Source: Acidobacteriota bacterium
Lineage (GTDB): Bacteria > Acidobacteriota > Terriglobia > Terriglobales > Acidobacteriaceae
Reading direction: 5' to 3'
Assembly (NCBI GenBank): GCA_021846275.1
Contig: JAJZBZ010000002.1
Location: 248,001-312,000, forward strand
Length of the DNA stretch: 64,000 nt
Positions 56,698 through 64,000 of this stretch are shown here, one piece after another; position 1 is the stretch's first letter; every line of letters starts with the position of its first letter. A program made the translations under genes and the position numbers. Below the pieces are notes generated by a model that saw only the letters and a program-made list of their open reading frames with translations, ran no database searches and was not told where the DNA came from.

Positions 56698-57300
56698 TCA
56701 GCGGCGGCGAAATCCGCCCGGACGGCGATCGCCGCGCCCACCCCGATCACCGCGTTCGCCCCTGTCGCCGCCGCGTCGCGGCATCGCCGGAATGGGCGCG
56801 GGCAGATGAGTTTTGCCTTCGGGGTAGACGACCAGATAGCGCTCGCTGCCCTCGCCGAGTGAGGCTGTCTCCACGCCCTCCATATCGCGAAAGAGCATGT
56901 GCAACCTGCGTCGCTCGCGCGAGTGGGTCGGCGGAAAGCTGTACGGCATGCCCGTCTCCAGCACGCGCGCAGCCGCTGTTTCGGCTGCCATGCGCAGCTC
57001 CTGCTCCTCCATCGCCTTGAAGTTCAGCGCGTCAAAGCTGAGCAGATAGTGCTCCTGCGGCTCAAGCCGCAGTGTCTGCGTGGCCATGTGTTCCAGCGCG
57101 CGCAGCAACTCGCCCTTGCGCTGCGTCAGCAGCGTCGCATCCGGCCCCATGAACTCCACCATCAGGGCTGGCATCTCTTCCTCACCCACGGCGTTGCCGG
57201 ACATCGCGCGAAACTTCAGCCGAAATCCTCCGTTGTGGATGATCCCGTTCAGCAGACCGGCGACTTTCTGGGCAGACTCTTGCAGATTCTCAATCGGCAT
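56698..57300 (-). CDS. R3H-domain nucleic-acid-binding protein with RGG-rich tail
   Basis: 200 residues. A KH-like/R3H C-terminal half contains the R3H pattern in HSRERRRLHMLFRDMEGVET (about 125-144), as in Jag/KhpB proteins. It ends in an Arg/Gly/Asp-rich tail with repeated RGD/RGG units (RRGGDRGERGDRGGRGDRRP), a type of segment that binds RNA. The usual N-terminal Jag domain and the yidC neighbour are missing, so it is an atypical stand-alone member. Start at 57300 (MPIENLQESAQKV). Confidence 0.78.
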   Translation of the reverse strand: MPIENLQESAQKVAGLLNGIIHNGGFRLKFRAMSGNAVGEEEMPALMVEFMGPDATLLTQRKGELLRALEHMATQTLRLEPQEHYLLSFDALNFKAMEEQELRMAAETAAARVLETGMPYSFPPTHSRERRRLHMLFRDMEGVETASLGEGSERYLVVYPEGKTHLPAPIPAMPRRGGDRGERGDRGGRGDRRPGGFRRR

Positions 57301-57390
57301 CTCGTTATCAGTATCGCAAATCCGCAAATGTATCCCAAATCCGTGCGTGCCGGATCCGGGTCTGGCGGCGTGCGCTCCTGCCAAACAGAA

Positions 57391-62239: not shown

Positions 62240-63010
62240 ATGCCCGCAGCGAATTCCAATTCGCCCCGCAAAGCCTCGGCTCACGCCGCTCCGCGTATCG
62301 CCTTTTTCGGCGGCAGCTTTGACCCTCCGCACTGCGGCCATCTGGGCATCGCGCGCGCCGCCCGTCAGGCGCTAGCGCTCGACACTGTGCTCTTCGCGCC
62401 GGTCGGCCTCCAGCCGCTCAAGGCGGATCATCCCTCACCCACCGACTTTGCGCACCGTCTGGCGATGACCCGCATGGCCATCGCCGACGAACCTGGCTTC
62501 GAGCTTTCCCTGCTGGACGCGCCCAACGCCGACGGCGAGCCAAACTTTACCGCGTCCACCCTGGAGCGCCTGCGCGCGGAGCTGCCTTCCGCAGCGGAGC
62601 TGTTCCTGCTCATCGGCTCCGATTCCCTTCCGCAGTTCGCGCGGTGGCACCGCGCCGCGGAGATTCCCTTTCTTGCCTCGCTCGTCGTCGCCGCGCGTCC
62701 CGGCAAATCGACCGCGATGCTCGTCGATCCAACAATCTGGCTGCCAGCATCGCTGCGCCTGGATGGAGCCAGACAGAGACAGGAAAAATCCGGCCTGCGC
62801 AGCCTTCGGATTGCCAATCCTGCTGGCCACGCCGCACAGCTTCATTTCCTCGACGAACCGGATTATCCCGTCAGCGCCACAGAACTGCGCGCCCTGCTTG
62901 CCAGTGGCGCCGCATACGGTTTCACAAATCTGCTGCCGCCCGGCGTGCTCGACTATATCCGCGCCCACCGGCTCTATGCGGAGTCTTCCGGCAAGACAAT
63001 GGCAAGATAG
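62240..63010 (+). CDS. nadD: Nicotinate-nucleotide adenylyltransferase
   Basis: 256 residues. The nucleotidyltransferase motif GGSFDPPHCGHL (24-35) holds the HxGH-type signature, LLIGSDSLPQFARWHRAAEI is the substrate-binding region and PVSATELRALLASGAAYGF matches the conserved C-terminal (I/V)SxTxxR motif. It makes deamido-NAD from nicotinate mononucleotide and ATP. The Pro/Ser/Ala-rich N-terminal extension (1-18) is probably disordered. It is followed 105 bp later by rsfS, a classic nadD-rsfS pairing. Confidence 0.95.
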   Translation: MPAANSNSPRKASAHAAPRIAFFGGSFDPPHCGHLGIARAARQALALDTVLFAPVGLQPLKADHPSPTDFAHRLAMTRMAIADEPGFELSLLDAPNADGEPNFTASTLERLRAELPSAAELFLLIGSDSLPQFARWHRAAEIPFLASLVVAARPGKSTAMLVDPTIWLPASLRLDGARQRQEKSGLRSLRIANPAGHAAQLHFLDEPDYPVSATELRALLASGAAYGFTNLLPPGVLDYIRAHRLYAESSGKTMAR

Positions 63011-63115
63011 GAACACACGGCAAGCCCAGCCGCGCCGATCATGCGCTCCCGGATTCGCATCCTGCTACCATGAAGCGTGCTCCGCCGCACGCGGACAAGG
63101 AGAAACGCAACCGCC

Positions 63116-64000
63116 ATGCCCAACCGGGATACGCTTCTGCAACTGCTCGCCGCCGTGACCGCCTGTGACGACAAGAAGGCCGAGGATACGCGCATCCTCG
63201 CGCTCGATCCGATGGACTCCGGTCTGGCCGACTTTTTTCTCATCGCATCCGGTTCGAGCGACCGTCAGGTTCTGGCCATCGCCGACGAAATCGAGCTTCA
63301 GTTAAAGCGGAAATTTGGCATCTATCCGCGTTCTGTTGAAGGTCGTCAAAAATCGGAGTGGATTCTGCTCGATTATGTGGATATAGTTGTTCACGTCTTC
63401 CTTTCTGAGAAGCGCGCGTACTACGACATTGAACGGCTCCGGAAAAGCGCTCAAACGCTCACCGGCACAGAAGTGGGAATGCTGCTCCAACGCGAAGAAC
63501 GAGCGCGCAGGGAAAAGAAGACGCTGACTAGCGGTGCCAAATCAAAATCCGTGAAGGGAGAATCATCGATGAGTCCATCGCCCGCAAAACCGGCTGCGAA
63601 GAAGGCAGCCGCCAAACCCGCAGCCAAGAAGGCTGCTCCGAAGAAAGCTGCCGCAAAAAAGGCCGCTCCGAAGAAGGCAGCCGCCAAGAAACCGGCTGCG
63701 AAGAAGGCCGCTCCGAAGAAGGCTGCTGCAAAAAAGCCAGCCGCCAAGAAGGCTGCTCCGAAGAAGGCCGCTCCAGCGAAAAAAGCTGCTGCAAAAAAGC
63801 CAGCCGCAAAAAAGGCTGCTCCAAAGAAAGCTGCCGTGAAGAAAGCGGCTCCCGCAAAGAAAGCCGCCGCCAAGCCGACAGCCAAGAAGGTTGCCATCAA
63901 GGCCGCAGCCAAGCCTGCCGCCAAGAAGCCGACGGCTGCCAGCGTGACCATGCCCTCGATGTATCTGGCGCCTCCACGCACCAGCGTCGAAATGCCCGAG
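63116..64000 (+). CDS. rsfS: Ribosomal silencing factor RsfS fused in frame to a histone-H1-like Lys/Ala/Pro tail (incomplete at window edge)
   Basis: 295 codons are present and the frame is still open at the window edge. Residues 1-120 are RsfS: DDKKAEDTRILALDPMDSGL, ADFFLIASGSSDRQVLAIAD, SEWILLDYVDIVVHVFLSEK and RAYYDIERL. RsfS binds protein L14 of the large subunit and blocks subunit joining. Residues 155-285 are a tail of PAAKKA/APKKAA repeats like histone H1 or HctB proteins, ending in a less repetitive SVTMPSMYLAPPRTSVEMPE. An in-frame ATG at 63569 (M152) has GAAGGGAG eight bases before it, so the tail could also be made as a separate protein. No stop separates the parts. Confidence 0.8.
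   Translation, partial: MPNRDTLLQLLAAVTACDDKKAEDTRILALDPMDSGLADFFLIASGSSDRQVLAIADEIELQLKRKFGIYPRSVEGRQKSEWILLDYVDIVVHVFLSEKRAYYDIERLRKSAQTLTGTEVGMLLQREERARREKKTLTSGAKSKSVKGESSMSPSPAKPAAKKAAAKPAAKKAAPKKAAAKKAAPKKAAAKKPAAKKAAPKKAAAKKPAAKKAAPKKAAPAKKAAAKKPAAKKAAPKKAAVKKAAPAKKAAAKPTAKKVAIKAAAKPAAKKPTAASVTMPSMYLAPPRTSVEMPE
63569..64000 (+). other. Possible internal start producing a separate histone-H1-like protein
   Basis: ATG at 63569 is in frame with rsfS and has GAAGGGAG eight bases upstream, a normal ribosome site. From it the product would be MSPSPAKPAAKKAAAKPAAK and further repeats, about 33% lysine: a histone-H1-like DNA-binding protein. Whether it is made separately, as part of a fusion, or both cannot be decided here. 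Confidence 0.45.

Follow-up and report, generated by a model that had tools for sequence, protein, structure and literature searches.

A family-wide polycationic tail on the acidobacterial ribosome silencing factor and a candidate nested start within its gene

The ribosome silencing factor RsfS is usually viewed as a small single-domain factor. In the stretch of DNA analysed here (the window: 64,000 nucleotides from a member of the Acidobacteriaceae, assembly GCA_021846275.1, contig JAJZBZ010000002.1, our G000:C8:248001-312000; positions below are window coordinates unless another locus is named), the rsfS gene codes for a complete RsfS core that continues, in the same frame, into a long tail of lysine, alanine and proline repeats. 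Basic tails occur on RsfS throughout the family, and in one genus the frame also holds a conserved Shine-Dalgarno (SD)-like sequence ahead of an in-frame ATG or GTG. Comparison of these sequences makes it reasonably probable that in this genus a single gene has two nested products, RsfS extended by a disordered polycation tail, and the tail by itself as a free H1-like polycation.

An RsfS core with a lysine-rich extension

The frame opens with the ATG at 63116 on the forward strand. Its first 108 residues (63116-63439) form a complete RsfS core that scores above the curated cut-offs of both Pfam PF02410 (99.5 bits over residues 13-108; cut-off 21.6) and TIGR00090 (94.1 bits; cut-off 56.9). A first-pass annotation of the window had described the frame as running past this core into a long Lys/Ala/Pro tail that is still open at the window end, and had proposed following it beyond position 64000. 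The assembled contig bears this out: the stop lies 39 bases past the window end, at window-equivalent 64037-64039 (L003 3038-3040), and the full product is 307 amino acids long, with 199 residues beyond the core. These last 199 residues consist of a linker (residues 109-151; 63440-63568) and a lysine/alanine/proline repeat (from 63569 to the window end at 64000 and on to the stop), and the C-terminal end reads MYLAPPRTSVEMPESIAASSDPKPEN.

An AlphaFold2 model of the 307-residue product, built from 31 family sequences, gives confident predictions over residues 1-110 (block-mean predicted local distance difference test, pLDDT, 73-97), and falls to block means of 49-62 from residue 141 onward, where almost no structure is predicted. 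The best eight matches of the core model in the PDB are all RsfS/iojap structures, including 2o5a, 6sj6 and 4wcw, with template modelling (TM) scores, normalised to the target, of 0.77-0.87. According to excerpts of PMC9503621, residues E70, W77, D81 and Y98 of Staphylococcus aureus RsfS were selected as contacts to the ribosomal protein uL14; the residues aligned with them here, E75, W82, D86 and Y103, do not vary in any of the 31 family sequences aligned. Between core and disordered tail the model also places an extra helix (residues 117-138; 63464-63529), and a charged stretch similar to this region appears in the family consensus. No match was found among the PHROGs phage families. As far as it can be read from sequence and model, the anatomy of the gene is firm.

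The first-pass annotation had called the tail H1-like. The composition, rich in Lys, Ala and Pro, agrees with that term; membership of a histone-like family does not follow, as the tail scores below the curated cut-offs of both PF07382 (HC2; 33.7 bits against 40) and NF038053 (49.4 bits against 80). The tail was therefore rejected as a member of HC2, and 'H1-like' is used here as a description of composition. A genome-wide spread of the repeat was likewise considered and rejected: the motif KKAAxKKA occurs eight times in this genome, seven of them in the rsfS tail and one in a separate H1-like gene.

Distribution of the tail

The family sample comprised 154 locus rows, which, after removal of three repeat genomes (L184, L186 and L204), represent 151 genomes. 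L208 and L223 (contig edge) and L224 (a masked stretch in the tail) were left out as unreadable, giving 148 readable genomes, among them L011 and L161, in which the fetched stretch ends before any stop. PF02410 was detected in 141 of 150 family genomes. Conservation of the tail in relatives, which the first-pass annotation had wished to see checked, proved complete: a basic extension past the RsfS core is present in 148 of the 148 readable genomes. It ranges from 28 to 274 residues (median 64), contains 23-44% Lys+Arg with a net charge of at least +7, and varies in form between short ends of the RKKRA type and long KA repeats. The opposite arrangement, in which relatives would carry an rsfS that stops and a separate H1-like gene, was also sought. 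No separate lysine-rich open reading frame (ORF; at least 50 residues, more than 20% Lys, both strands of the fetched sequence considered) was found near rsfS in the 147 locus rows, from 144 genomes, that have at least 300 nucleotides after rsfS.

Outside the family the extension is shorter. Of 103 loci found in other acidobacterial families, 68 were read; their post-core part measures 9-61 residues (median 14), and although 14 of the 68 reach at least 23% Lys+Arg, only three of these are also at least 28 residues long. Beyond the phylum, 74 non-acidobacterial loci, found among the best 80 from named genomes and mostly belonging to Streptomyces with some Bacteroidota, have 13-47 post-core residues and no KA repeat. 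Within this sample, the long basic tail marks this acidobacterial family.

These comparisons also dispose of the suggestion that an assembly or sequencing error joined two genes by hiding a stop, for which the only argument is the oddity of the arrangement itself. The same arrangement recurs in 14 genomes of the genus and basic tails occur in the 148 family genomes, so that the probability of such an error is negligible.

A candidate start inside the frame

At 63569-63571 the frame of the window contains an in-frame ATG, Met152 of the fusion, preceded at a spacing of eight nucleotides by the SD-like sequence AAGGGAG (63554-63560). Initiation there would yield a second product of 156 amino acids with a net charge of +41, encoded from 63569 to the stop. 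The first-pass annotation had guessed at such a two-product arrangement from the window's own letters. In the genus to which the window belongs, 15 genomes were searched and the RsfS core was matched in 14, the remaining genome, G156, being 84% complete and without an RsfS match. Inside the open frame of all 14, a suitably spaced SD-like sequence stands ahead of an in-frame ATG or GTG. In 13 of them it is AAGGGAG or AAAGGAG with the same eight-nucleotide spacing; the fourteenth, G102, has GGGGGAGG followed by GTG, a strong SD in a different peptide and codon context (TGGGTTV). The guess is thus supported within the genus, by conservation of sequence, and no such site was found in other genera: among 99 of their tails of at least 36 residues (the masked L224 included), none reaches a pairing energy of -8.6 kcal/mol ahead of an ATG or GTG that opens a product of 30 residues or more, the best value being -6.1.

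Several further features of the site speak for a second start. The residue at the putative start is only ever Met (nine genomes) or Val, the latter always encoded by GTG (five genomes). The glycine codon that forms the SD is GGA in 13 of 13 cases, whereas GGA makes up 38 of all 139 Gly codons in these ORFs, a count that includes the 13. The rsfS start itself is preceded by AAGGAG (63097-63102; spacing 13 nucleotides; pairing -6.9 kcal/mol), and in each of the 14 genus genomes the internal SD pairs more strongly (-8.7 to -11.1 kcal/mol) than the SD of the rsfS start does (-4.9 to -7.4), all of these energies having been computed with an assumed anti-SD sequence that may differ from the 16S ribosomal RNA (rRNA) end of this genome. 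Amongst six close genomes, codons for the same residue are identical at 14 of 15 positions around the site, compared with 30 of 80 in the core and seven of 15 in the linker; beyond the site the figure is four of 48, in a region where the repeats align poorly.

A number of observations weigh against a second start, in addition to the use of an assumed anti-SD. The contrast in codon identity between site and core is significant by Fisher's test (P 8e-5), although this test treats codons as if they were independent, and the two regions differ in amino-acid make-up. When synonymous codons were shuffled, 10-421 of 1000 trials per genome, and 263 for the genome of the window, matched the SD. This weak significance in single genomes means that the case for the internal start rests on conservation across relatives, and that conservation spans related genomes which, judged by identity, form about seven distinct lineages, the seven near relatives of the window counting as one. 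One short tail from another genus, L117, does reach -8.6 kcal/mol once the start-codon and 30-residue limits are lifted. Start regions are usually open, whereas the 121-nucleotide fold at the internal start is more stable than its shuffles (z -2.5), and the region is therefore not unstructured. Finally, no sigma-70-like site that might serve the second product as a promoter of its own was found in L003 1950-3200, a search that covered this promoter type.

One alternative is that the fusion alone matters, as a basic disordered tail typical of the family, and that the SD-like sequence is a by-product of the peptide motif KG[DE]SxM/V, which is conserved, with little or no second product. Codons for Lys-Gly-Asp/Glu resemble an SD whenever Gly is encoded by GGA, the single-genome shuffles are non-significant for most genomes, and other genera have basic tails without the internal site. 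Such an account leaves unexplained why GGA is used in 13 of 13 cases, why only ATG and GTG occur at the start, why synonymous codons are frozen past the limits of the motif and why G102 retains an SD and GTG within a different peptide. We therefore regard a by-product as unlikely, though well short of remote. A second start inside the rsfS frame is, in our judgement, well supported by comparison, though unproven.

Conversely, the gene might chiefly produce the free H1-like protein, with the full-length fusion arising as a rare run-on of two overlapping translation units after the loss of a stop had joined an H1 gene to rsfS. The greater strength of the internal SD in every genome would fit such an origin, as would the C-terminal motifs borne by the part past the internal start. 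Yet the frame is open in all 14 genus members, and the linker, 41-86 codons long, contains no stop in 776 codons, compared with 26 and 22 in the other two frames. This open frame, coupled with the fused tails lacking an internal site in other genera, speaks against two genes having run together by chance. Nor was a donor gene for the second module identified: a search of 150 genomes with an 83-residue segment of L232 gave three weak matches (E 2.5e-4 to 0.0075), none of them convincing, and as the query also missed the genus members in the draw, this negative carries little weight. A run-on origin is accordingly held to be improbable. The C-terminal motifs themselves follow the repeats in the genus tails (L225-L238) and are short, resembling YLxxPRSxAEMP in the clade of the window and GAKPPVVK in several others.

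On a tree of RsfS cores (145 rows and 108 columns, with repeats and truncated, masked, short or identical cores left out) the genus forms one clade with support of 99/98, the bootstrap being not fully settled. The simplest reading of this clade is a single origin of the internal site. What the first-pass annotation had missed, and what the comparison of sequences indicates, is that the two features differ in age and extent: the fused basic tail appears as the older, family-wide state, and the internal start as a later addition confined to one genus, a single clade of the RsfS tree.

Possible roles and related systems

In the account favoured here, of two nested products, function is inferred from the parts. 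RsfS is bound to uL14, near bL19 and helix 95 of 23S rRNA, and excludes the 30S subunit, as described in excerpts of PMC7125091. The contact residues kept in the core suggest that here, too, it would bind uL14 and keep the 50S subunit from joining the 30S. Held beside the RsfS binding site, a flexible tail that carries a net charge of about +40 would be expected to bind rRNA or another reachable polyanion. Being disordered and positive, it may act as an electrostatic anchor on nucleic acid without sequence specificity, most likely on nearby rRNA or other RNA, and such anchoring could lengthen the residence of RsfS on the 50S or cluster silenced subunits. In the genus, the second ribosome entry, an SD with ATG or GTG, would additionally yield the tail by itself, as a free H1-like polycation 78-209 amino acids long. 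This protein could bind DNA, RNA or polyphosphate and either compete with or supplement the tethered form, and it would come besides the product of the separate H1-like gene.

That gene (L004 3495-4169, forward strand; G000:C8 69494-70168) has a weak HC2 match of 32.7 bits, below the cut-off of 40. A further protein with a K/P/A-rich extension is encoded elsewhere in the same genome: an RluB-like pseudouridine synthase (L241 1-1914, reverse strand; G000:C11 near 90769), which carries this extension, about 200 residues long, at its N terminus, is RG-rich at its C-terminal end and runs off its locus. It scores below the cut-off of the RluB model and above that of the pseudouridine synthase model TIGR00093. 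The occurrence of such an extension on an rRNA enzyme favours an rRNA-directed role for the tail.

By analogy, the tail might instead be a tether to chromatin or granules. In excerpts of PMC9239181, AlgP is linked to starvation bodies, and the example of AlgP and PhaF suggests that during starvation a KPAA tail can fasten a body to the nucleoid or lie on polyphosphate. The rsfS tail resembles these tails in composition, and in starved cells it could likewise hold silent 50S subunits at the nucleoid or on polyphosphate. However, no observation favours DNA over RNA, the 50S is itself mostly RNA, so that the nearest polyanion is rRNA, and relatives of the separate H1-like gene are present in 10 of the 15 genus genomes, the weakest of which may match by composition. 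A tether of this kind is a minority possibility, to be kept in view. Broader still, and rather unlikely in our estimate, is the proposal that translation shut-down and nucleic-acid packing are coupled through this single gene, the tailed RsfS holding silenced 50S on RNA, DNA or polyphosphate whilst the nested start makes a free polycation. The ratio of tethered to free tail would then be set by initiation at two sites in one gene, and may respond to the state of the ribosome.

The surroundings of rsfS are conventional. Its upstream neighbour is nadD (nicotinate-nucleotide adenylyltransferase; 62240-63010, forward strand; TIGR00482 136.4 bits, cut-off 112.45), and nadD adjoining rsfS is a usual bacterial gene order. 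Elsewhere in the window, 56698-57384 on the reverse strand encodes an R3H-domain protein (52.7 bits against the PF01424 cut-off of 26.8; 57.9 with the Jag/EloR model, short of the cut-off of 145) that ends in an RG-rich basic tail and is likely another RNA-binding protein with a basic disordered end.

No description of an RsfS polycation tail or of a nested start was found among the matches listed in the open-licence literature, subscription journals lying mostly outside that search; in the excerpts of PMC12977618, both mentions of a 'C-terminal extension' concern LhpF, not RsfS. Each of the parts is known, namely RsfS, KA/KPAA tails and in-frame internal starts, and it is their union, with a family-wide tail and a genus-wide nested start, that was not found in the literature searched. 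In comparison with RsfS/iojap/YbeB (PF02410, TIGR00090; MALSU1 in mitochondria), the gene product shares the complete core, the predicted fold and the uL14-contact residues, and differs in its 199 extra residues, comprising the predicted helix 117-138 and then a disordered polycation, and, in the genus, in the nested start. HC2 and the bacterial H1-like proteins (PF07382, NF038053) have the same composition and repeat style as the tail, which remains below their curated cut-offs. AlgP and PhaF of Pseudomonas likewise join a folded N-terminal part to a long disordered K/P/A repeat, but the folded part here is a ribosome factor rather than a granule protein, and the likeness need not reflect common ancestry.

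In-frame internal initiation that gives N-terminally shortened forms is familiar from IF2, CheA, ClpB and others, where an SD with ATG or GTG similarly lies within a longer frame and is read in the same frame. In contrast to those cases, the start predicted here would separate a low-complexity polycation from a domain that silences ribosomes. The rsfS gene of this family therefore offers a natural system in which to study what a disordered polycation tail contributes to a ribosome-dormancy factor and, in the one genus, a testable case of nested in-frame coding.
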